A stretch of DNA of 50,985 bases, taken from Deltaproteobacteria bacterium (lineage in GTDB: Bacteria; Desulfobacterota; Syntrophia; Syntrophales; Smithellaceae). The notes under the pieces were generated by a model. It was not told where the DNA came from and did no database searches. It saw only the letters and a list, made by a program, of their open reading frames with translations. Position 1 is the stretch's first letter; the number at the start of each line of letters is the position of its first letter. Below are positions 16,077 through 26,101 of this stretch, piece after piece. Made by a program: the position numbers and the translations under genes. Location: the NCBI GenBank assembly GCA_012729055.1, contig JAAYDW010000084.1:1-50985 (forward strand). The letters run 5' to 3'.

Positions 16077-16562
16077 ATGATCGCGATCAGTATCCTGAAG
16101 TCGTTCGCTTTTTTTAAGGATTTCACCAACGATCAACTCGTTAAACTTGAATCTCTGGCCAATGAAGAGACCTATCCGGCCGGTACGCAGCTCTACTCCA
16201 CGGGCGATCCCGCCAGATGCCTTTATCTTCTTCAGGAAGGGAAGATTGCGCTGTTCATGGACAACTACATGGGACCCGGCAAACCGCCCATGCAGGTCAC
16301 CATCGACATCATCACCAAGGGAGAATCCATGGGCTGGTCGGCGGTCGTGGAACCCTACATCTACACGCTCAGCGCCCGCTGCCTCGAGAATACCAGAATG
16401 ATCGCCTTCGACGCCGCCAAGCTGCGCGCCGTGATGGAAGAAGATTGTCCGCTGGGTTACAAAATCATGCAGTCCACCGCCAAAATCATCGCCTCGCGGC
16501 TGACGCATACCCGTATTATTCTGGTCGGCGAGCGCGGCCTTTCCACATTGACCGATTATTAA
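16077..16562 (+). CDS. Cyclic-nucleotide-binding-fold protein lacking a DNA-binding domain
   Basis: A 161-residue protein with a single CNB (cupin-like) beta-roll: FKDFTNDQLVKLESLANEE, YPAGTQLYSTGDPARCLYLL, EGKIALF. There is no C-terminal helix-turn-helix, so it is not a complete Crp/Fnr regulator. The phosphate-binding cassette is altered: where Crp-type proteins have GE(I/L)A and RSA, this one has GESMGWSAVVEP and YTLSARC, so the usual ribose-binding Glu and phosphate-binding Arg are not recognisable. It may bind another ligand or a protein partner. AAGGAAAGGAG precedes the start. It sits 22 bases before the arginine decarboxylase gene and may control that enzyme. Confidence 0.82.
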   Translation: MIAISILKSFAFFKDFTNDQLVKLESLANEETYPAGTQLYSTGDPARCLYLLQEGKIALFMDNYMGPGKPPMQVTIDIITKGESMGWSAVVEPYIYTLSARCLENTRMIAFDAAKLRAVMEEDCPLGYKIMQSTAKIIASRLTHTRIILVGERGLSTLTDY

Positions 16563-16584: not shown

Positions 16585-17133
16585 ATGCAGAATTTTGTCC
16601 CCAAAAAGATCTTCTTCACCAAAGGCGTGGGCACGCACAAAGACGAGCTTCACTCCTTTGAGCGTGCCTTACGCAACGCGGGCATTGAAAAATGCAACCT
16701 GGTTCAGGTGTCCAGCATTTTTCCTCCCGGCTGTAAAATGATTTCCAAATCGCAGGGCCTCAAGTCGCTCGTGCCGGGCGCCATCACCTACTGCGTGATG
16801 AGCCGCTGCTGCTCGAACGAACCCAAGCGGCTTCTGGCCGCTTCGGTGGGCTGCGCGATCCCCGCGGACAAAACCTCATACGGCTACATCAGCGAACACC
16901 ACGCTTTCGGCATGACGGAAAAGCAAACCGGCGACCACGCCGAAGACCTGGCCGCGGCCATGCTGGCCTCCACGCTGGGCATCGACTTCAACGTCGATGA
17001 GAGCTGGGACGAGAAGAAAGAAATATTTAAAATCAGCGGCAAGATCGTCCGGACGCTGAACGTCACCCAGTCAAAAATCTGCGTGGACAACAAATACACC
17101 ACCGTCGTCGCCGCCGCTGTTTTTGTTTTCTGA
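16585..17133 (+). CDS. pdaD: Pyruvoyl-dependent arginine decarboxylase
   Basis: A 182-residue proenzyme of the PvlArgDC family, which converts arginine to agmatine and CO2. The self-cleavage site is the Ser43-Ser44 pair in LVQVSSIFPPGC; cleavage makes a beta chain and an alpha chain whose N-terminal serine becomes the pyruvoyl cofactor. A Glu equivalent to the catalytic one is in SEHHAFGMT (E104). The N-terminal FFTKGVGTHKDELHSFE is characteristic. The start has AAGGAG upstream. Arginine decarboxylation can serve polyamine synthesis or acid resistance; no agmatinase or antiporter is adjacent. Confidence 0.93.
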   Translation: MQNFVPKKIFFTKGVGTHKDELHSFERALRNAGIEKCNLVQVSSIFPPGCKMISKSQGLKSLVPGAITYCVMSRCCSNEPKRLLAASVGCAIPADKTSYGYISEHHAFGMTEKQTGDHAEDLAAAMLASTLGIDFNVDESWDEKKEIFKISGKIVRTLNVTQSKICVDNKYTTVVAAAVFVF

Positions 17134-17243
17134 AAAAAACGCCAACCGGCCGATCCGTCGCTGCAACGGCAGTCCCGCCGCCCTGCTGCGACGCGCCGGA
17201 AATATCGCAGCCGCCGTCGGGCGGCAAGAAACTGTCGTGACCT

Positions 17244-18104
17244 ATGAAAATTGAAATCCCCGAATTGAAATACCAGGACGTCGGCGGCGCAGAGCTCCCC
17301 TATCTGTATTATCCCGGCGGCGAAAAGAAAATGCTTTTCGCCCACGCCACCGGCTTTCTTCCCTGGTTGTGGCATCCGATCATCGAGGCGTTTGTTCCCG
17401 AATACTCCGTCTGGGCGCCGTACATCTGCAACTACCGGTCGTGCGATCCGCACGAAGGCGGCCTGAAGTGGAATGTCATTGCCGAGGATCTGGGCGCGTT
17501 CTGCCGCGCGCAGAACATTGAAAACCACGTGCAGGTCGGCCATTCCATGGGCGCCGCGGTTTCGACGATCACCGCCGCGCTTTTCGGCGTTCGTCCGCGC
17601 GGCATGATCCTCATCGAACCGATTTTCCTGCCCGAGGAATTTTACAGCCTGACGCCGAGCGTCAAGGACCATCCGCTCGCGTCCAAGTCGATCAAGCGCG
17701 TCAACCACTGGAAAAGCGAAGAAGACGCCATGGCCTATCTGAATTCCCGTTCCTTTTTTACGAGCTGGGACAAGGAGATCCTGGATCTGTACAAGCGCTT
17801 CGGCATGGAAAAAATGCCGCAGGGCGACATGCGGCTCACCTGCGCGCCGGAAAGCGAAGCGGCGATGTTCATGGGCGGCTGGTGCTGCAATCCCTGGCCG
17901 CTTCTGCAAACGATCGGCTGCCCCGCGCTGGTGATTGAAGGAGTCCAGAGCCCCAACCGCGATTTCGTGGACGTCCGGCGGGCCGTCTCGCTTCTGCCCG
18001 AGGGGCAATACGGGTCGGTGGCCGGCGCGGGCCATCTCATCCCGATGGAAAAACCCGGCGAGACCACCGCCATCATCAGGGATTTTATCGCGAAGCTGCC
18101 CTGA
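17244..18104 (+). CDS. Alpha/beta-hydrolase
   Basis: A 286-residue alpha/beta-hydrolase fold protein. The nucleophile elbow is VGHSMGAAVS (Ser101), the oxyanion segment is near FAHATGFLPWLW and the catalytic His is in GAGHLIPME near the C-terminus. The acidic member is uncertain; VIEGVQSPNRDF is the candidate strand end. No signal peptide, so it is cytoplasmic, with an ester, lactone or acyl thioester as probable substrate. The ribosome-binding site is weak. It follows pdaD after 110 bases and precedes the ParA gene by 51, so it may share their transcript. Confidence 0.85.
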   Translation: MKIEIPELKYQDVGGAELPYLYYPGGEKKMLFAHATGFLPWLWHPIIEAFVPEYSVWAPYICNYRSCDPHEGGLKWNVIAEDLGAFCRAQNIENHVQVGHSMGAAVSTITAALFGVRPRGMILIEPIFLPEEFYSLTPSVKDHPLASKSIKRVNHWKSEEDAMAYLNSRSFFTSWDKEILDLYKRFGMEKMPQGDMRLTCAPESEAAMFMGGWCCNPWPLLQTIGCPALVIEGVQSPNRDFVDVRRAVSLLPEGQYGSVAGAGHLIPMEKPGETTAIIRDFIAKLP

Positions 18105-18155
18105 ACGTTGCGTGTGCGGTCGCAGCTTCCGGAAAAAACACTGGAGACGCAAAAC

Positions 18156-18920
18156 ATGGCCGGTCCCGACATCATCGCTTTCTGCAATCAAAAGGGGGGC
18201 GTCGGCAAAACCACCTGCGCCCTCAATATCGCCGTGGGGCTCACGCTGCTTCGGAAAAAAGTCCTTGTCATCGATTTCGATCCGCAGGCGCACCTGACCT
18301 ACTCCCTGGGCCTCGACGCCAACACTCTGCCGGGCGCGATCGACGCGGTGATGACGGGCGAAAAGCCGCTTGCCGAAGCGGTTCTGGACCTTAAGGGTAT
18401 GCGGGTTCTGCCCGCCGGCCCGGGCCTGGCAAAACTGGAAACGGAACTTGCCGCACGGTCTGAAAATGAATTTATTCTAAAAGACCGCCTGGCCGGCGTC
18501 ACAGATGTCTCCTACGTCATCATCGACTGCCCGCCGTCGGCGGGGCTTCTGACCGTGAACGCCCTGGTCGCGTGCCGGGAGGTGTTCATTCCGCTGCAGA
18601 TGGAGTTTCTGGCCCTGAAGGGCATGAGCCGTCTTCTGACGCTCATCGAGGACATTCGGAAATCCTGCCGAACGGACGGCCCTTCCTACCGCGTCATTCC
18701 CACGCGCTACGACGCGCGCAAAAGGCTCAACAACGCCATCATGGACAAGGTGCGCGAACGCTTCGGCCCGCGCGTGTTCCGGGCCGTCATCCGCGAAAAT
18801 ATCGCCGTGGCCGAAGCCCCCAGTTTCGGCCAATCCATTTTCGAATACGCCCCCAGAAGCCACGGCGCGGAAGACTATCTGGATCTGTGCCGGGAAATGC
18901 TCAGAAGGCGTCAGGGTTAA
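18156..18920 (+). CDS. ParA/MinD-family ATPase without a ParB partner
   Basis: A 254-residue P-loop ATPase with the deviant Walker A motif QKGGVGKTTCA (residues 12-22), switch region VLVIDFDPQAHLTYSLG and Walker B-like YVIIDCPPSAG. These are ParA/Soj features, and such proteins position DNA or large protein assemblies. No parB, centromere-like repeat or second partition gene is adjacent, so a chromosomal positioning role for some other cargo is more likely than plasmid partition. ATG 18156 is preceded by GGAG. The gene lies 21 bases before the first caspase-fold gene, making that cluster a possible partner. Confidence 0.88.
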   Translation: MAGPDIIAFCNQKGGVGKTTCALNIAVGLTLLRKKVLVIDFDPQAHLTYSLGLDANTLPGAIDAVMTGEKPLAEAVLDLKGMRVLPAGPGLAKLETELAARSENEFILKDRLAGVTDVSYVIIDCPPSAGLLTVNALVACREVFIPLQMEFLALKGMSRLLTLIEDIRKSCRTDGPSYRVIPTRYDARKRLNNAIMDKVRERFGPRVFRAVIRENIAVAEAPSFGQSIFEYAPRSHGAEDYLDLCREMLRRRQG

Positions 18921-18941
18921 GGAAAAAAAGCAAGTTATCCG

Positions 18942-20264
18942 ATGAAGAAAAAACTATTCAGTCTGTTGCTCCTTATTGTTTCTTTGCTGCTCATGCATGC
19001 CTGTGCATCCGTTCCGCTGGCCACAACCGAAGAGGAGACGCGCATTAAAAATATACCGCCTCCGCCGGACAAGGCGCTCCTCTATGTTTACAGAGACAAC
19101 CTGTTTATGGGGTCCGCCGTTATTTACCACGTTTATATCGATGAGCAGCGCGTCGGCGGCTCATTGGCCGTTAACAATTTTCTGGCCGTTGTCCTGGAAC
19201 CGGGAGAGCACCGCTTTTCTTACGTTGCCTCTCATCTGGCGCCATCGGCCCTGTCCGCGTATCTCTCCGACAATTACCTGCCGGTGCAGGTTGACTCCGG
19301 TCGCAAGTATTACATCAAGATTTCCGCTCAATCCGGCCCCGGCCGGTCCAGAATGGTCGATGTGCTTCCCGAATCGTTTCAAAACGCCAAACTGATCGAT
19401 AAAAGCCGGCAGCCGGCCCCTCTGCAAACCGCTCAGTCCCATGCCCGGCCTGCTTCCCCCCCGGCCGGGCAACAGCGGCCGATTCCCCGATCGGATGTCG
19501 ATACGCTTTTTCCGGCGACGGTACGCATCCAGCAAAACAGTTACGCCATTGTCATCGGCGTTGAGGAATACCGGGAGAAATTACCGAAAGCCGATTTCGC
19601 CGTGAATGACGCCCGCGTGATGGGGAAATATTTTTCAAAATCGCTGGGGATACCGGAAGAAAATCTGGTCATTCTGACAAACGACCGGGCAACGAAAAGC
19701 GATATGGAAAAATATTTCCATCGCTGGCTGCAAAACAACGTGACAAAAGAAAGTGAGCTGTTTATCTATTTCTCCGGCCACGGCGCGCCCGATCCTGCAA
19801 ACGGCGACGCTTACCTGGTCCCCTACGACGGGGATCCCGCCTACATCACGGAAACCGGCTATCCGCTGCGCCGGCTGTATGAGGTCCTCAACCGGCTGCC
19901 GTCCCGAAGAAACGTGGTGATTCTGGATTCCTGCTTTTCGGGCGCGGGCGATCGATCCGTCATCGCCAAGGGACTGAGGCCGCTTGTGGTTATGGCGGCG
20001 GACCAAAGCCGCATCGGGCTTGCGACGACGGTTCTGTCGGCGTCCGCCGGCAACCAGGTCAGTTCGACGTATCTGGAGAAAGGGCATGGCTTGCTGACCT
20101 ATTACGTTTTAAAAGGATTAAAAGAAGAGAAATTTCTCGGTGCGGAAGGGCGGCTTGATATCGAAAAACTCTATCCTTACGTGAGGCAGAATGTCGAGCG
20201 CGTCGCCCGCAAACAGTACAACAACGCGCAGACGCCGCAGCTGATCGGAACGCGGAAAAATTAA
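18942..20264 (+). CDS. Caspase-fold (peptidase C14) lipoprotein with N-terminal DUF2846-like domain
   Basis: A 440-residue lipoprotein: signal peptide followed by the lipobox LMHAC (C21). Residues about 40-150 (PPPPDKALLYVYRDNLFMG, EPGEHRFSY, GRKYYIKI) resemble the DUF2846 family. After a proline-rich linker ending RSDVD (183-187) comes a caspase p20-like domain with NSYAIVIGVEEY, catalytic His280 in YFSGHGAPDP and Cys331 in LDSCFSGAG. Both catalytic residues are intact, so an active cysteine endopeptidase is expected, attached to the cell envelope facing away from the cytoplasm. It is the first of three tandem paralogues and the only one without ankyrin repeats. Confidence 0.9.
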   Translation: MKKKLFSLLLLIVSLLLMHACASVPLATTEEETRIKNIPPPPDKALLYVYRDNLFMGSAVIYHVYIDEQRVGGSLAVNNFLAVVLEPGEHRFSYVASHLAPSALSAYLSDNYLPVQVDSGRKYYIKISAQSGPGRSRMVDVLPESFQNAKLIDKSRQPAPLQTAQSHARPASPPAGQQRPIPRSDVDTLFPATVRIQQNSYAIVIGVEEYREKLPKADFAVNDARVMGKYFSKSLGIPEENLVILTNDRATKSDMEKYFHRWLQNNVTKESELFIYFSGHGAPDPANGDAYLVPYDGDPAYITETGYPLRRLYEVLNRLPSRRNVVILDSCFSGAGDRSVIAKGLRPLVVMAADQSRIGLATTVLSASAGNQVSSTYLEKGHGLLTYYVLKGLKEEKFLGAEGRLDIEKLYPYVRQNVERVARKQYNNAQTPQLIGTRKN

Positions 20265-20276
20265 GGAAGGCGGCCT

Positions 20277-21611
20277 ATGCAGAATGTTTTGAAATGTATC
20301 GTTTCCGGCATTGCGTTACTTCTTCTGGCCGGCTGCGCGGCAGGCTTGGTCGGAGCGGCCAGGAACGGCGACGTCGCCGCTTTACAGAAACTGCTGGACG
20401 CGGGAGCGGATATCAATGAAAGCGGTCTGTCCGGAAACTGCAACGGCCCCGCCCTGGCTCATGCCGCCTACTACTGTCATCCCGAAGCGGTTCGGTATCT
20501 GGTGAAAAGAGGCGCCGATATCGAAGCCGTCGGCGCCATGATGGGCGGCAATCGTCCGCTGCATCTGGCGGCAGGTTCGGACTGTGTCGAAGCCGTCCAA
20601 ATCCTGCTGGATGGGGGAGCGGATCTGCATGCCCGGGCCATGCGGGGTTCGGCTCTGTCCGTCGCCGCGATCGAAGGCAACATCAAAACCGTGAAATACC
20701 TGATCACCCGCGGGGCGGATGTGGACGACGCCGTTACCACACTGCAAAAACGCGGAGAAAAAAAGGCGCTGGCGCTTCTGGAAAAATACGCTCAGCCGGC
20801 CCTGGCGGCCGGCTCCCGCGGAAAAGCTCCCGCCGCAAAGCCGATCCGGTCCGATATTGATGCCGTTCCCGCTTTCACGGCCGCGCCCCGGCCCGACGAT
20901 TACGCGGTGGTCATCGGCGTTGAACGTTACCAGGGGCTTCCCCCTTCGGACTTCTCAAAAAACGACGCGGTGGTTTTCAGCCGTTATCTCCAAGCGCTGG
21001 GATACCCGGCGCGTAATATCGAGCTGGTGACAGACGACAAAGCAACCAAATCCGCCATCGAAAAAGCGCTGGAAGCCTGGCTTGTCAATCACGCTAAGAA
21101 GGGCAGCAGAATCATCGTTTACTTTTCGGGCCACGGCGCGCCGGAGCCCGCCACGGGAGAAGCCTATCTGGTGCCCTACGACGGAGATCCGAATTACCTG
21201 CCGCAGACCGGATACCCGCTTAAAAGACTCTATGAACAACTGGCGAATCTGCCGTCTCGGGAAATGATTGTCGTGCTCGATTCCTGCTTTTCGGGCATGG
21301 GGGGCCGCAGCGTTCTGGCCAAAGGGGCCAGGCCGCTGGTCATGACGGCGCCCACAATGACGCTTCCGACTAATGCCGTCGTGCTTACCGCCTCGGAAGC
21401 CGGCCAGATTTCCACATCGTCGCCGGACAAAGGCCACGGCGTTTTCACGTATTATTTTCTGAAAGCCCTCAAAGACGGCCGGAAGAACATTGCCGAAATC
21501 TACGAAACCATCAAACCGCAGGTGCAAGACGAGGCCCGGCGCTTAAACGTCCGGCAGAACCCGACGATCAGTCCGGCTGCGGAAGCGCTCCAGGGGAGGT
21601 TTGCTTTTTAA
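20277..21611 (+). CDS. Ankyrin-repeat caspase-fold lipoprotein
   Basis: A 444-residue lipoprotein with lipobox LLAGC (C20). Residues about 25-170 contain four or so ankyrin repeats, seen as AARNGDVAALQKLLDAGADI, YLVKRGADIEAVG, ILLDGGADLHARA and YLITRGADVDDA. The linker ends RSDID (191-195). The caspase-like domain (about 205-444) has YAVVIGVERY, His286 in YFSGHGAPEP and Cys337 in LDSCFSGMG. Ankyrin repeats usually bind another protein, suggesting substrate or partner capture next to the protease. It starts 12 bases after the preceding paralogue. Confidence 0.9.
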   Translation: MQNVLKCIVSGIALLLLAGCAAGLVGAARNGDVAALQKLLDAGADINESGLSGNCNGPALAHAAYYCHPEAVRYLVKRGADIEAVGAMMGGNRPLHLAAGSDCVEAVQILLDGGADLHARAMRGSALSVAAIEGNIKTVKYLITRGADVDDAVTTLQKRGEKKALALLEKYAQPALAAGSRGKAPAAKPIRSDIDAVPAFTAAPRPDDYAVVIGVERYQGLPPSDFSKNDAVVFSRYLQALGYPARNIELVTDDKATKSAIEKALEAWLVNHAKKGSRIIVYFSGHGAPEPATGEAYLVPYDGDPNYLPQTGYPLKRLYEQLANLPSREMIVVLDSCFSGMGGRSVLAKGARPLVMTAPTMTLPTNAVVLTASEAGQISTSSPDKGHGVFTYYFLKALKDGRKNIAEIYETIKPQVQDEARRLNVRQNPTISPAAEALQGRFAF

Positions 21612-21617
21612 TACGGC

Positions 21618-23081
21618 ATGTCAACACAGAGGATGTCTCAGGAACTGAGGTGGATTGTGTGTAAAAGAGCATTAAGAGTTATTTTTGTGTTCTCCTTGTG
21701 CGTCACATTGTCAGCCTGTGCGACGGGCGGTTCGCTGCATGTCGCCTCCGGTCAGGGCAATCTGAAGGCGATGGAGGCGGCTTTGAACGCGGGAGCCGAC
21801 CCCAATGAGCATAAAGGAAAGATGACCAATATTATTGATGGGTGGACGCCTGCGGGTTGGGGTGGCCCCCCCTTGCACCATGCGGCGTACTATTGTCAGG
21901 ACAAGGCGGCGGCGCTGCTCATCGCAAAGGGCGCGGACGTGAATGCGCTTGGCGGCGGAGATCTCACAGCGCTGCACCGGGCGGCCTTCCGAGACTGCGA
22001 GAAGGTCATCAGGCTTCTTCTCGAAAACGGGGCGAACATCAATGCGCGCGACGCAGTTTATCGGGATGGCTACACACCGCTTGAGTGGGCCGCGCTCGCC
22101 GGCGCCAGGCGAGCCGTACGCGCGCTGGTTGAAAACGGCGCAGATCCGGAGGCGGCGATCTTCAAAATCAAAACCGGCAATCAGCACCTGGATAAATCAT
22201 TACATCCTGAAGCGGCGCTACAGCTTCTCAGTGTTTTTGCCGGGCAAAACAAGCGGACGGGCCAGGCTGCGGAGCCCAAAGGCACGCCTGAAGGTATCCG
22301 GCCGGCGATCGTATCCGATATTGACGAGCTTCCCTCCGCGAAAGCAACTCCCGACAAAAAAGCCTATGCGATTGTGATCGGCATCGAACGTTATCGCCAG
22401 AGCCTTCCCCGGGCTGATTTTGCGGACCGGGATGCCGCTGTCGTCGTAAAATATTTGGAAAACACGCTTGGCTATCCCGGGGAAAACATCATTACCCTGA
22501 CCAATGACCGGGCGCTGCAAAGTGATTTTGCCAAGTATTTCGAAAAGTGGCTGCCCAATCATGTGGAGCCGGGCAGCCGGGTGTTTATCTATTATTCCGG
22601 CCACGGCGCGCCCGACCCCAAAACCGGCGGCGCCTACCTTGTGCCGTATGACGGAGACCCCACGTTCATCACCGAAACCGGCTATTCGTTAAACAGAATG
22701 TATGCCGCCCTGGGAAAGCTCCCGGCAAAAGAGATCATCGTGGTTCTGGACTCGTGCTTTTCAGGAAGCGGGGGGCGCTCCGTGCTGGCGAGAGGCGCAA
22801 GGCCCCTGGTGATGAACCTGCAGACCGCAACGGTCCTTCCCAAAAATATGACCGTGATGGCCGCCTCTTCCGGAGAGCAGATCAGTTCGACCTATCATGA
22901 AAAGGGCCACGGCTTGTTTACCTACTTTTTGCTCAAGGGTATCAAGGACGGGGATGTCCTGACCTCCGACGGCGCCCTGCGCATGGACGATCTGTACGGA
23001 TACGTCAAGCCGCAGGTGGAGCGTATTGCCCGCAGGCAGTACAACAACGAGCAGACGCCGCAGTTGATCCGGGGAAAGTAA
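21618..23081 (+). CDS. Ankyrin-repeat caspase-fold lipoprotein, third paralogue
   Basis: A 487-residue protein whose hydrophobic segment ends LSACATGG, a lipobox (C34 in this numbering). Residues about 40-180 hold ankyrin repeats (ASGQGNLKAMEAALNAGAD, LLIAKGADVNALG, LLLENGANINARD, ALVENGADPEAA). The linker contains VSDID (232-236). The caspase-like domain has YAIVIGIERY, His329 in YYSGHGAPDP and Cys380 in LDSCFSGSG, both intact. The start at 21618 gives an untypically long pre-signal segment; a GTG at 21657 with GAGGTGG upstream would give a cleaner signal peptide. It ends 16 bases before the DUF4384 gene. Confidence 0.88.
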   Translation: MSTQRMSQELRWIVCKRALRVIFVFSLCVTLSACATGGSLHVASGQGNLKAMEAALNAGADPNEHKGKMTNIIDGWTPAGWGGPPLHHAAYYCQDKAAALLIAKGADVNALGGGDLTALHRAAFRDCEKVIRLLLENGANINARDAVYRDGYTPLEWAALAGARRAVRALVENGADPEAAIFKIKTGNQHLDKSLHPEAALQLLSVFAGQNKRTGQAAEPKGTPEGIRPAIVSDIDELPSAKATPDKKAYAIVIGIERYRQSLPRADFADRDAAVVVKYLENTLGYPGENIITLTNDRALQSDFAKYFEKWLPNHVEPGSRVFIYYSGHGAPDPKTGGAYLVPYDGDPTFITETGYSLNRMYAALGKLPAKEIIVVLDSCFSGSGGRSVLARGARPLVMNLQTATVLPKNMTVMAASSGEQISSTYHEKGHGLFTYFLLKGIKDGDVLTSDGALRMDDLYGYVKPQVERIARRQYNNEQTPQLIRGK

Positions 23082-23097
23082 GGAAAGAGAAGTCGCC

Positions 23098-23916
23098 ATG
23101 ATAAAAAAAATTTTTCTTCTTCTGATCGTTTTGTGTTTTCCCTGGCCCGGCACGGCGGCGGAGCGGCCCGTCTGGGTGGACGCAACAGGCGAAGCCCGAA
23201 TGGGCGATTTTGATACGGTTAAAGAGGTCAGAGAACGCGCCCGGCGCGACGCCCAGGTAAAAGCCGTCGAACAGGCGGTGGGCGTCTTCATCAAATCCCA
23301 TACGCTCGTTTCCAACAGCCAGGTGTCCGATGACCTCATCTATGCCGCGGTTCGCGGCAAGATCACGAAGGAAAAAACGGTAAGCGAGGGGTGGGACGAA
23401 AAAGACCGCCACCTCTACCGGGTGGCGATCCGGGCCCTGGTCGAGCCCGTTTATCCGGAAAAGGGCGGCGCTCTGGCGGTGAAATTGTCTCTTTCCGGAT
23501 CCGATTTGCGCGAAGGCGACGAAGTGAAAATTTTTTATACCGTGAGCGAAGATGCCTACGTCTATATTTTTTCGGTTGCCGCAGACGGGTCCGTGACGCT
23601 TTTACTGCCCAACGCCCGGATGGCCGACAACTTCGTCCGGGCGAACGCGGCTTTCCAATTTCCGCCCGCCGGCAGCCGTATTGCGCTGAAAGCCATGTTT
23701 TTGCCCGGCTTTGAAGGGAAATCGGTCGAAGAAAGAATCAAAATCATCGCCACGAAAAAAAAGGAACCCCTGCTTTCTCTGGGTTTTCAAGAAGGCCTTT
23801 TTCAGGTATATGACGAAAAGTCGACCGGCATGATCGGCGATCTCGTCCGCAGGCTCAACGCCATCGATCCTGCGGACTGGGCTCAGGCCGTCGCGGTCTA
23901 CCAATTAAAAAAATAA
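23098..23916 (+). CDS. Exported FlgT_N/LPP20-like plus DUF4384 protein
   Basis: A 272-residue exported protein with a signal peptide ending near GTAAE. Residues about 25-118 (DTVKEVRERARRDAQVKAVE, VGVFIKSHT, LYRVAIRALVEP) resemble the LPP20/FlgT N-terminal fold. Residues about 130-215 (LREGDEVKIFYTVSEDAYVY, IFSVAADGSVTLLLPN) match DUF4384. DUF4384 domains are, to my knowledge, often fused to or encoded beside caspase-fold domains; here it is separate but in the same operon. It may be a partner, regulator or substrate-presenting subunit of the three proteases. A ribosome-binding AAGGAAAGAG is just upstream. Confidence 0.8.
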   Translation: MIKKIFLLLIVLCFPWPGTAAERPVWVDATGEARMGDFDTVKEVRERARRDAQVKAVEQAVGVFIKSHTLVSNSQVSDDLIYAAVRGKITKEKTVSEGWDEKDRHLYRVAIRALVEPVYPEKGGALAVKLSLSGSDLREGDEVKIFYTVSEDAYVYIFSVAADGSVTLLLPNARMADNFVRANAAFQFPPAGSRIALKAMFLPGFEGKSVEERIKIIATKKKEPLLSLGFQEGLFQVYDEKSTGMIGDLVRRLNAIDPADWAQAVAVYQLKK

Positions 23917-23926
23917 GGAGACGCTT

Positions 23927-24343
23927 ATGAAAAAAAGTGCGATGTTTTTGATCGTTGCGGCGCTGGTACTCTGGACGGCAGCCGCCCAGGCGCAATTGAA
24001 GGACGGCCTGTGGGAAATCACCTCGCAGGTGCAGATATCGGGCATGCAGCAGCAGATGCCGCCGGCAACGTTCCGCCAGTGCATCACCAAAAGCGATCCG
24101 GTTGTGAAAAACCAGGACAAGGATTATAACTGCAAAACGACCAGCCTGAAAGTCAGCGGCAACACCGTCACTTACGCCGTCGAATGCAAAGGCAAGGAAG
24201 GCGCGATGTTCAGCGAAGGCAAAAATACTTACACCGGCAGTACGATGGAAGGCGCGGCGACCACGAACTTCAAGATGCAGGGTCAGCCGGCGATGCAAAT
24301 GAAAAGTAAAATGTCGGGAAAGTATATCGGCCCTTGCAAGTAA
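23927..24343 (+). CDS. Exported DUF3617-family protein
   Basis: A 138-residue protein with a signal peptide (MKKSAMFLIVAALVLWTAAA, cleavage near AQA). The mature part begins LKDGLWEITSQVQISGMQ, the typical opening of DUF3617, and has three cysteines (RQCITK, YNCKTT, VECKGK) plus a C-terminal GPCK, which may pair as disulphides in the periplasm. Function is not known for the family. It follows the DUF4384 gene after 10 bases and shares its strand and probably its transcript. Confidence 0.82.
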   Translation: MKKSAMFLIVAALVLWTAAAQAQLKDGLWEITSQVQISGMQQQMPPATFRQCITKSDPVVKNQDKDYNCKTTSLKVSGNTVTYAVECKGKEGAMFSEGKNTYTGSTMEGAATTNFKMQGQPAMQMKSKMSGKYIGPCK

Positions 24344-24394
24344 CATGCAGAATACGGTTCTTCCGTGACTGCAAATAATATGAAGGAGAAATCA

Positions 24395-25144
24395 ATGAGA
24401 CTCAAAGACAAAGTGGCAATCGTAACGGGATCGGGACGCGGCATCGGAGAAGGCATTGTGATGCGTTTTGCCGAAGAAGGCGCAAAAATCGTCGTCAACG
24501 ACGTCAACGAAGCGGATGCGGCCAATGTGGTAAACCAGATCAAGGCCAAGGGCGGCCAGGCCGTAGCGGTGCTGGGGTCGGTTTCCGACCGCGCCACCGT
24601 GCAGAAAATGGTCGATACGGCCGTGAAGGAATTCGGCAAGCTGGACATCATCGTGAACAACGCGGGCATCACCCGCGACGTCATGCTGCACAAGATGACG
24701 GACGATCAGTGGAACGCGGTGGTCGACGTGAACCTGACGGGCGTGTTTTACGGCATTCAGTGCGCGGCGCGCTACATGCGCGAAAAGGGATACGGCAAGA
24801 TCGTCAACATTTCTTCGACGAGCGCGCTGGGAAACGCCGGCCAGCTTAACTATTCGGCCACGAAGGCGGGTGTGATCGGCATGACCAAGACGGCGGCCAA
24901 GGAGCTGGGTGCCAAGGGCGTGAACGTGAACGCCATTGCGCCGGGCATGATCTGGACGGACATGATGAAGAACATGCCGCCGGACGTGATCAAGCAGATG
25001 GACGCCATGCTGCCTTTCATCGTGCCGATGAACCGGAAAGGCTCGCCGCAGGACATCGCCAACCTGGCGCTGTTTTTGGCCTCCGACGAAAGCTCGTTCA
25101 TCACCGGCCAGGTCATCTTCTGCGACGGCGGAATGAAGATCTGA
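24395..25144 (+). CDS. fabG: 3-oxoacyl-[acyl-carrier-protein] reductase-type SDR
   Basis: A 249-residue classical short-chain dehydrogenase. The NAD(P)-binding motif is TGSGRGIGEGI, followed by NNAG (IIVNNAGITRD). The catalytic set is Asn, Ser in NISSTSALG, and Tyr/Lys in YSATKAG. The C-terminal ITGQVIFCDGG is typical of FabG. It reduces 3-oxoacyl thioesters to 3-hydroxyacyl thioesters or works in reverse; as FabG-like SDRs are diverse, the carrier (ACP or CoA) is uncertain. ATG 24395 has AAGGAG upstream. It ends the long plus-strand run, before a strong terminator. Confidence 0.88.
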   Translation: MRLKDKVAIVTGSGRGIGEGIVMRFAEEGAKIVVNDVNEADAANVVNQIKAKGGQAVAVLGSVSDRATVQKMVDTAVKEFGKLDIIVNNAGITRDVMLHKMTDDQWNAVVDVNLTGVFYGIQCAARYMREKGYGKIVNISSTSALGNAGQLNYSATKAGVIGMTKTAAKELGAKGVNVNAIAPGMIWTDMMKNMPPDVIKQMDAMLPFIVPMNRKGSPQDIANLALFLASDESSFITGQVIFCDGGMKI

Positions 25145-25188
25145 GAGAGGGCTCGGGAAACGAGGCTGTAGACTGTTAGGTTTAAGGA

Positions 25189-25221
25189 GGGAGCAATCCA
25201 AAACGGATTGCTCCCTTTTTT
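25189..25221 (+). terminator. Strong intrinsic terminator after fabG
   Basis: GGGAGCAATCC (25189-25199) pairs perfectly with GGATTGCTCCC (25205-25215) over a 5-base loop and is followed by six Ts. It lies between convergent genes and closes the plus-strand run that includes the caspase block. Confidence 0.92.
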
Positions 25222-25270
25222 ATGATGAGGTTTTTCCGATCAATCCTTCCGAACCGCGGGCGCGTCGGTC

Positions 25271-26101
25271 TTATCGGCCGGTCGCTTTTTCCTCCATCTG
25301 CTTCCGGATATGAGCCATCACCAGTTCCTTGCCGGTCGTGTTGCTGAAAGAGCTTACCGGAGACAGGCGCCGCAGGAAGACGATTTCCTCGTCTTGGGGA
25401 ACCGGAAAAGATCCCAGCGGATCGGCGATCTTCAGATCCCAGGGAATATCGGCGCGAACCTCGTCCACGCCGACGCCTGGGAAAAGGGCGTCGAGGTACA
25501 TTTCCCTGGTCTCGGGGTGGAATTTGAAAATCCCCTTCGGCGTAATCAGAATGCTGGGCCCCGATCCGGGCGTGTAGCGGCCGGATTTCTCCCGTTCGTC
25601 GCCGCCCCCCAGATACCCGGGCGAAGTCATGTAGGGCAGCTTTTCGACAAATCCCTTGCCTTTCATCGTCAGGATGGTCTCTTTGGCATAGGCATAGAAC
25701 TCCGGCGCCCCGCCCGCCGCCGTAATGCGCTGCGCGGCGGGAGGCGTGCCGAGAAAGGATGTGTTGAGATTGCCGTACTTGTCGATCTGCCCGACCCCAA
25801 GAAAGGCTTTGTCGAGGTAGCCGGCATAGGCGATGGTGGTAAAGACGCTGAACAGATCCACGGAATAGCCGTACCCCCTCGTGCAGGTCGCATCGGCGAC
25901 GTTGACCGGCAAAACGCACGGTTCGAAATCGACGATGCCCGATTCCATGAGCAGCACGGCTTCGGGAGCATGGGTGTTCTTGGCGACCGCGCCGGCCAGG
26001 ATGGGCATGCCGATTCCCAGAGCGACCACGTCCCCGTTTTTAATCTGCCGGGCCGCCGTGACGATCAGGAGTTCCTCTTTCGTGACTTGTTTAGTCAACA
26101 T
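25271..26101 (-). CDS. CoA-transferase beta subunit (glutaconate CoA-transferase B-like)
   Basis: A 276-residue class I CoA-transferase subunit. The opening GDVVALGIGMPILAGAVAK is the family's glycine-rich strand, and LLMESG places Glu53 at the position of the catalytic glutamate that forms the glutamyl-CoA thioester in glutaconate CoA-transferase (Glu54). LGVGQIDKYGNLN is another landmark. It transfers CoA between acyl-CoA and a free acid. It overlaps the alpha subunit gene by about 11 bases, so the two form a coupled complex. The C-terminal extension after about residue 240 (IRKQMEEKATGR) is less conserved. Substrate unknown. Confidence 0.88.
   Translation of the reverse strand: MLTKQVTKEELLIVTAARQIKNGDVVALGIGMPILAGAVAKNTHAPEAVLLMESGIVDFEPCVLPVNVADATCTRGYGYSVDLFSVFTTIAYAGYLDKAFLGVGQIDKYGNLNTSFLGTPPAAQRITAAGGAPEFYAYAKETILTMKGKGFVEKLPYMTSPGYLGGGDEREKSGRYTPGSGPSILITPKGIFKFHPETREMYLDALFPGVGVDEVRADIPWDLKIADPLGSFPVPQDEEIVFLRRLSPVSSFSNTTGKELVMAHIRKQMEEKATGR

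Follow-up and report, generated by a model that had tools for sequence, protein, structure and literature searches.

A stretch of 50,985 nucleotides from a Deltaproteobacteria bacterium of the family Smithellaceae (assembly GCA_012729055.1, contig JAAYDW010000084.1, positions 1 to 50,985 of the forward strand; hereafter, the window) contains three consecutive, same-strand genes for caspase-fold proteins, c1, c2 and c3, closely followed by a fourth gene, d4, that encodes a secreted protein with a DUF4384 domain. Relatives of these genes in several phyla exchange the front half of the protease and retain one little-changing partner, which points to a sensor system, so far unstudied, that cuts proteins outside the cytoplasm. 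As reconstructed from sequence, it would be a modular, envelope-located protease system in which caspases with interchangeable sensors cut after Arg or Lys and share one common periplasmic partner, d4, a reading to which we give about an even chance. It builds on features that can be read directly from the compared genomes: the parts themselves, with catalytic and S1 residues in place and signals of the export type, the exchange of modules at one joint, the coupling to d4, and the varying number of caspases beside an unchanging d4 in one chromosomal slot. The row is composed as follows:

18942-20264, + strand: c1 (440 aa), lipoprotein-type signal, DUF2846 module, caspase domain
19068-19337, + strand: c1 DUF2846 module, residues 43-132 (Pfam PF11008, 6.1e-12)
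19536-20246, + strand: c1 caspase domain, residues 199-435 (PF00656, 9.3e-17; profile bounds)
20277-21611, + strand: c2 (444 aa), lipoprotein-type signal, ankyrin module, caspase domain
20337-20798, + strand: c2 ankyrin module, residues 21-174 (PF12796, 2.4e-22; profile bounds)
20895-21569, + strand: c2 caspase domain, residues 207-431 (PF00656, 3.7e-21; profile bounds)
21618-23081, + strand: c3 (487 aa), lipoprotein-type signal, ankyrin module, caspase domain
21720-22217, + strand: c3 ankyrin module, residues 35-200 (PF12796, 2.6e-26; profile bounds)
22313-22361, + strand: c3 module/caspase joint (SDID motif); the blastn match to the lone caspase in the same slot of a congener begins at 22313
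22362-23069, + strand: c3 caspase domain, residues 249-484 (PF00656, 1.8e-12; His329, Cys380, S1 Asp272 and Asp378)
23098-23916, + strand: d4 (272 aa), secreted, possibly Lpp20/FlgT-like domain plus DUF4384 (PF14326, 2.9e-20)

The gaps between the genes are 12 bp (c1/c2), 6 bp (c2/c3) and 16 bp (c3/d4). A first-pass annotation of the window, made from the letters alone, had described a row of three caspase-fold genes with gaps of 6-12 bases, and both the coordinates and the Pfam Peptidase_C14 (C14) matches agree with it (61.9 bits for c1, 76.3 for c2 and 47.9 for c3, against a cut-off of 21.4); the three caspases are real, but the fourth gene, 16 bp further on, had been overlooked. The difference between the N-terminal modules had also been seen correctly, Pfam giving DUF2846 in c1 and ankyrin repeats in c2 and c3. 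The 3.36 Mb genome to which the window belongs has five Peptidase_C14 matches, and three of these are c1, c2 and c3.

The catalytic motifs, SGHGAP with the His and LDSCFSG with the Cys, are present in c1, c2 and c3 as originally reported. Across 123 related domains (those scoring above 250 bits, with identical ones removed), residues corresponding to c3 His329, Cys380, Asp272 and Asp378 are invariant (123/123), and in an earlier set that includes more divergent members (60 domains of the order, fragments excluded), the His, the Cys and one Asp are kept in 60/60. Thus, loss of the catalytic pair in relatives, which would have argued against a functional system, was not encountered. The model of c3 (predicted local distance difference test score, pLDDT, 81) matches ankyrin repeat proteins at residues ~35-209, and its residues 243-487 match Arabidopsis metacaspase 4 (Z 22.4, 2.5 Å over 207 residues), MALT1 (Z 21.6) and Geobacter GSU0716 (Z 20.6). 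The paracaspase MALT1 and the plant and yeast metacaspases, which are eukaryotic enzymes of the cell interior, are the closest solved folds or sequences to c3 and have the basic-P1 pocket residues in common with it, a likeness that we do not take as family membership. A paracaspase-type Ig domain was looked for as well: Pfam finds no Ig family in c1-c3, and a generic Ig-like fold is present in d4, that is, in a separate chain. Through an alignment to yeast metacaspase read by us, Asp272 and Asp378 of c3 are equated with Asp95 and Asp211 of TbMCA2, the residues behind the basic-P1 preference of metacaspases according to the relevant sections of PMC6426788. Because the two S1 Asp match these pocket residues, the metacaspase-type domains of c1-c3 would be expected to cleave after Arg or Lys. 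Pro396, also invariant (123/123), lies within a loop that mostly reads KGxRP, with Lys in the first position in 99 and Arg in 3 of the 123 domains; this loop could be a self-processing site.

The protease domains had been taken for near-copies, the products of a local duplication of a protease module. This is not supported: the caspase domains are 50.0% (c1/c2), 55.9% (c1/c3) and 54.5% (c2/c3) identical, and the ankyrin-containing N-termini of c2 and c3 are 37.6% identical. In the tree of the 60 domains of the order, c1 groups with a DUF2846-caspase from another genus of the same family (support 100/100), c2 belongs to a 10-row clade (100/99), and c3 to a 22-row clade (98/92), with the c1 and c3 groups as sisters (99/97). 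In a quick tree of the 123 non-redundant domains, which has numerous weak forks and places the c1 pair, with weak support, inside the large c3-type group, none of the 22 adjacent pairs are sisters; these pairs come from 18 caspase arrays, not all of them beside d4. Five of the 22 are nevertheless close, at distance rank 2, 3, 7, 9 or 10 among the other rows, and of the 26 within-array pairs, a single non-adjacent one, formed by the first and third genes of the Nitrospirota contig L180, comes out as a sister pair, with support 13. Given the three supported groups and the lack of adjacent sisters, we reject local duplication. Since adjacent pairs are non-sister and some are close, the arrays are assembled mostly from diverged paralogues, with some closer ones. 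Contig L180 combines the same ingredients as the window but arranges them differently (ankyrin, ankyrin, DUF2846, then d4), and the DUF2846-caspases of L180 and L215 do not group with c1.

The region in front of the caspase domain varies widely. The modules identified there by Pfam, mostly protein-binding or envelope domains, include ankyrin, PDZ with Peptidase_S41, TPR with PDZ, ankyrin with PDZ, thioredoxin-like, SecD P1 head, TPR, PDZ, Sel1, WD40 and CARDB-type (60 chosen queries, 59 caspases or N-terminal parts, some contigs being scanned twice); several relatives have N-termini without a known family. The DUF2846 module of c1 was found by Pfam, and those of its relatives by a profile of our own. 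Rough labels for the 123 domains are ankyrin 51, unassigned 28, CARDB 22 (plus 3 with WD40, a rough label in itself), DUF2846 4, PDZ-S41 4, short 4, thioredoxin 2, SecD 2, and one each of three others; the ankyrin label, assigned by similarity to ankyrin seeds, is over-called in places, for instance in L037_7236, which has no Pfam ankyrin. The chains in which PDZ and Peptidase_S41 (tail-specific protease type) precede the caspase contain two proteases each and are found at L045:6662-8872, L090:9664-11919, L040:8170-10410, L047:6179-8377 and L189:6320-8677; those of L045, L090, L040 and L047 are split over two caspase clades.

Parsimony requires at least 12 module changes over the 91 labelled rows, compared to a mean of 35 and a least value of 28 in 500 shuffles. 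The number of changes is smaller than in the shuffles and yet at least 12, so the modules are inherited but replaced repeatedly. In 193 of the 211 pairs of proteins that are at least 65% identical and differ in label, similarity starts 11-50 residues before the caspase domain, whereas it starts more than 80 residues before the domain in all 74 same-label pairs; an SD[IVL]D motif is located just ahead of the caspase domain in 74 of the 123. In the closest pair with differing modules, PDZ-S41 and ankyrin precede caspase domains that are 84% identical. Judging from these alignments, exchange of the front module takes place at one constant point ahead of the caspase domain. The first-pass view of an active-looking, envelope-bound protease with swapped N-terminal modules is thereby borne out at the level of sequence, caspases up to 84% identical carrying different modules.

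Most of these proteins carry export signals. When judged against the standard lipobox pattern, the Cys-containing sequences of c2 (LAGC) and c3 (LSAC), each behind a hydrophobic stretch, conform, and that of c1 (MHAC) is lipobox-like but atypical; by this pattern, the lipobox originally assigned to each gene stands for c2 and c3. By simple rules applied to 121 of the 123 proteins (two have too little N-terminus), 75 have a lipobox, 35 another hydrophobic signal and 11 neither, although several of the 11 begin at a contig edge or a doubtful start codon. In none of the 75 does Asp directly follow the lipobox Cys; in Escherichia coli, the lack of Asp at position +2 favours the outer membrane. Most of the caspases are therefore predicted to be outer membrane lipoproteins that face the periplasm.

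By eye, d4 has a signal-like start and no lipobox. Its second domain is a DUF4384 (PF14326, 72.5 bits against a cut-off of 27) and structurally yields only generic Ig-like sandwich matches (Z ~8). The first domain is similar to FlgT_N below the Pfam cut-off (E 0.055), and in the model of d4 (pLDDT 74), it matches Lpp20/FlgT at Z 6.9-7.4 (7.4 for 5ok8 and 3w1e), a weak level; the best sequence match, to a solved lipoprotein, has an E of 0.012. The likeness to Helicobacter pylori Lpp20/Tip-alpha and to FlgT, with Z below 8, may reflect a common arrangement only, and d4 differs from these proteins in the added DUF4384 and the lack of a lipobox. In an alignment of 28 sequences that are 52-73% identical to the d4 of the window (A1), residues 67-84 and 231-244 are well conserved; poorly modelled as they are, these stretches could be contact sites. 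We looked in the same alignment for a candidate caspase cleavage site in the inter-domain linker and, by eye, saw no invariant Arg or Lys there.

The caspases and d4 occur together. Of the 155 genomes of the order that were searched, 20 encode both, 2 encode d4 without the caspase, 1 encodes the caspase without d4, and 132 lack the two, at thresholds of at least 250 bits for d4 and at least 222 bits for a c3-type caspase that were set at score gaps once the scores had been seen (Fisher p 6.5e-22 with kinship ignored; 1.6e-13 and 2.3e-15 with two other caspase thresholds). Three further tests at a low d4 threshold, from which the genomes G069 and G085 were missing, were set aside. By row count, the 20 genomes with both contain 49 caspases and 21 d4. 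Within the genus, a d4 orthologue is present in 6 of the 20 genomes. When 395 genomes of the phylum were sampled, d4 was found in 12 further genomes, at 13 loci, and 11 of these loci have a same-strand upstream caspase, in two cases 450 and 768 bp away. The first-pass annotation had regarded homologues that never co-occur elsewhere as an argument against a functional system; they do co-occur, and widely.

The two genes are also adjacent far more often than expected from their surroundings. A scan of named genome contigs with A1 retained 80 loci, some of them on contigs already present in the order and phylum sets, so that the sets are not independent; after setting aside 9 with less than 700 bp upstream or no usable d4, 71 were informative. 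A caspase lies directly upstream of d4, on the same strand and within 1 kb, in 46 of the 71, compared to 19 of 626 other open reading frames (ORFs) of the same loci; in 4 of the remaining loci, the caspase is downstream only, and in 21, there is none on either side. Pooling all sets gives 74 non-redundant d4, of which 52 have such a caspase directly upstream, and the frames overlap or abut in 24 of these 52 pairs, 11 of them with an overlap of 4 bp. No fusion of a caspase with d4 was found among the 74. The d4 records are labelled Syntrophaceae, Smithella, Desulfobacteraceae, Deltaproteobacteria, Geobacter, Geomonas, Nitrospirae, Nitrospinota, Deferribacteraceae and Seleniivibrio, with one each of Nitrosomonadales and Sericytochromatia, and because most are metagenome bins, the odd labels may be binning errors. 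The directly upstream caspase recurs in records labelled Deltaproteobacteria, Nitrospirota, Nitrospinota and Deferribacteraceae.

An example of the fluidity of the caspases next to a constant d4 is a single chromosomal slot that we compared in five of the six d4-bearing genomes of the genus (G019 was left out). In all five, d4 and a dehydrogenase gene are located downstream of the same ParA gene, and the borders of the slot in the window are:

18108-18920, + strand: ParA-like ATPase, bounding the slot upstream in the genus (Pfam and synteny)
24383-25144, + strand: short-chain dehydrogenase, bounding the slot downstream in the genus (Pfam and synteny)

The slot holds three caspases in the window, at least two in G003, one in G008, and none in G012 and G005, with d4 present throughout; the count for G003 is a minimum because its record (L046) has runs of N inside c1 and d4. 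In G008 (L041), the DNA matches the window in one piece from 22313, at the c3 joint, through d4 to 25187 (71.8%), and the N-terminal part of its slot caspase shows no DNA match, no meaningful protein match to the ankyrin module of c3, and no Pfam family. Against a simple module swap at this site, the nearest relative of c3 in the tree is another caspase of G008. In G012 (L086:2610-3813), a nucleotidyltransferase/HepT-like gene pair of the toxin-antitoxin type lies between the C-terminal remnants of two caspases and seems to have replaced a caspase array. In G005 (L087), the slot consists of ~230 bp without a caspase remnant. Both G012 and G005 keep a caspase of the family elsewhere in the genome. 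The most constant component of the unit is d4.

From these data we infer proteolytic activity, activation driven by the modules, contact between the caspases and d4, the existence of substrates and a role for d4, along the following lines. The caspases would be exported and mostly lipid-anchored at the envelope, each with its own capture or sensor module. Binding of a ligand or of a damaged envelope protein by the module would activate the caspase, perhaps by self-cleavage, and different caspases of one cell would act on, or be controlled by, the common soluble periplasmic d4, which may be a scaffold or hub, a regulator or a target. We favour a regulator or scaffold over a substrate because of the many-to-one ratio, because d4 stays constant in the slot, and because DUF4384 is found in one chain with caspases elsewhere. 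In a bolder and less probable version of this scheme, d4 would be the one genome-encoded hub of a periplasmic, inflammasome-like relay. Caspase receptors in the outer membrane, a set that changes as sensor cassettes are swapped at the fixed joint, would feed this hub by proteolysis; if so, the cell could add or drop envelope inputs and leave the output unchanged. In most discussions, caspase-fold enzymes figure as intracellular proteases of cell death or immunity. An exported, sensor-swapping caspase family that retains all its active-site residues in the set examined and is tied to one constant periplasmic protein would offer a testable place for roles of bacterial caspases beyond cell death, in envelope sensing or editing, and DUF4384, a domain of unknown function, gains a candidate role as a caspase partner.

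Several observations weigh against this scheme. The co-occurrence p value is uncorrected for phylogeny, and its thresholds were chosen after inspection of the scores. There is no same-strand caspase within 1 kb on either side at 21 of the 71 d4 loci, and many caspases of the family are located away from d4; L167, one of the 9 loci set aside and the same contig as L087, has no caspase between ParA and d4 and so counts against adjacency. DUF4384 is found apart from caspases, too: in short stretches around 31 DUF4384 loci, a caspase is present in 13 and absent in 18. By our rule, 46 of the 121 caspases have no lipobox, so the lipoprotein anchor is not universal. Finally, the d4 model is of moderate quality and its fold matches are weak, and the linker, judged by eye, lacks an invariant basic residue, which also bears on the possibility, a rather improbable one, that d4 is a substrate, cut between its two domains to release a piece that acts elsewhere. 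Such cleavage would fit the many caspases per d4 and the two-domain layout with conserved, poorly modelled stretches at 67-84 and 231-244; the presence of DUF4384 in the same chain as other caspases (PMC6426788, relevant sections) fits a regulator better.

It is possible, if doubtful, that the unit serves envelope protein quality control, with modules (PDZ-S41, thioredoxin-like, TPR, ankyrin, SecD head) that capture misfolded or mistargeted periplasmic proteins, a caspase that simply degrades or clips them, and d4 as an accessory chaperone or adaptor, no signal being passed on. PDZ-S41, thioredoxin-like and SecD P1 domains are linked to export or folding, and in the order set, PDZ-S41 precedes four caspases (L040, L045, L047, L090) and a thioredoxin-like fold two (L043, L093) in the same chain, while two caspases from the named contigs have SecD P1 heads; the weak similarity of the first d4 domain to the envelope proteins Lpp20 and FlgT points the same way. 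However, caspase-fold enzymes are usually precise rather than processive, one cell often has several different caspases beside one d4, and the patchy distribution (6 of 20 genomes of the genus) is unlike that of housekeeping proteases. The same patchiness, together with the nucleotidyltransferase/HepT-like pair between caspase remnants in one slot, would suit a conflict or self-killing system: an attack on the envelope by a phage, predator or competitor would be detected by the modules, and the caspases would either bring about the death of the cell or inactivate the attacker. The EACC1/EACC2 systems, as described in the relevant parts of PMC8195603, likewise join a constant caspase to variable partner domains. 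We consider this unlikely: the EACC1-type NCBIfam model NF047832 stays under its cut-off, the PADLOC matches are to generic models (caspase, ankyrin) and to the candidates PDC-M72A and PDC-M28B, with none for d4 or DUF3617, and the neighbours do not commonly include a recognised defence gene other than the toxin-type nucleotidyltransferases. It is highly improbable that the genes are paralogues without a joint function that stay side by side through chance or a shared insertion hot spot. The fluid slot content and the toxin-antitoxin-type pair in one copy would be compatible with this; co-occurrence and adjacency far above the control, invariant active sites, and frames that overlap or abut d4 argue against it.

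A unit of caspases and d4 with this layout was not found described in the open-licence literature that we searched, in agreement with the first-pass remark, which needs qualification in one respect: operons with up to three metacaspases, for example, in Desulfococcus oleovorans Hxd3, were already counted in the 2012 survey of Asplund-Samuelsson et al. (PMC3501461). The prokaryotic metacaspases or orthocaspases of that survey resemble c1-c3 in the C14 fold, the His-Cys dyad and the many fused domains, of which WD40, TPR and Sel1 are the commonest, and some have predicted signal sequences (sections of PMC3501461). The dyad is intact in 84% of the surveyed metacaspases, and in 57% of those from Nitrospirae, as opposed to 123/123 here; the sections concerned name no fixed partner comparable to d4, and the terms ankyrin, S41 and LPP20 do not occur in the main text (PMC3501461). 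Physical coupling of a caspase to DUF4384 is known from orthocaspases (PMC6426788, PMC7475262, in part), such as the alphaproteobacterial pseudo-orthocaspases that carry DUF4384 at the C-terminus (PMC6426788). In those cases, the two share one chain, and the dyad is mutated or the proteins are cyanobacterial variants. In the unit described here, by contrast, DUF4384 is carried by a secreted protein of its own, and all domains that we examined have an intact dyad. Among the loci compared here, caspase and DUF4384 occupy a single frame in L269; a second case, L255, is weak.

Membership in known systems was also considered. The NF047832 scores are 93.9, 90.1 and 81.3 bits against a cut-off of 140, and EACC1 membership was rejected; unlike EACC1/EACC2, the unit carries export signals (the other EACC parts were not searched singly). 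The PADLOC matches, scored model by model and without the system rules, are to the generic models and to the two candidates, PDC-M72A lying over the ankyrin parts and PDC-M28B over 44 residues of ParA, at its P-loop; from these alone, membership in an anti-phage system of that collection is not evident.

Downstream of d4 are a DUF3617 gene and the dehydrogenase gene. ParA, DUF3617 and the dehydrogenase were rejected as parts of the system, being neighbours in the genus only, as far as seen. Searches for RNA families and tRNAs found none across the window, and promoter-like sites in 17100-25300 number 2, against 2.8 expected. Terminator-like sites in the same region number 20, against 11.6 expected, mostly on the - strand; the interval from c1 to d4 has a single weak + strand site, at 21634-21652, at the start of c3. 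Contig C51 of the same genome (L125:6198-10065) has, in a row, genes for an ankyrin-repeat protein of 783 aa, an ORF of 209 aa and another DUF4384 protein, with no adjoining caspase.

A third conserved partner was sought among the neighbours of the 74 d4 loci and rejected, the commonest families being far rarer than the caspase-d4 coupling: cNMP-binding proteins (11), DUF6036/DUF2204/AbiEii-like nucleotidyltransferases (10), and response-regulator-type proteins (9, named by eye). CHASE2-guanylate cyclases (6) recur as well. Examples of neighbours are L202:6683-7177, L236:4798-6930 and L217:13462-14103; the window has a cNMP-binding gene at 16077-16562. In a distant second arrangement (L101, L102, L103, L104, L109), a d4-like gene stands beside a caspase of 750-900 aa, with Pfam CARDB-type domains in the caspases of L101, L103 and L109 and OmpH in that of L109 as well. 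Fusions of a SecD P1 head with a caspase lie beside d4, on the opposite strand, in Geomesophilobacter sediminis (L227:11014-12636) and Geomonas sp. Red32 (L232:8757-10451).

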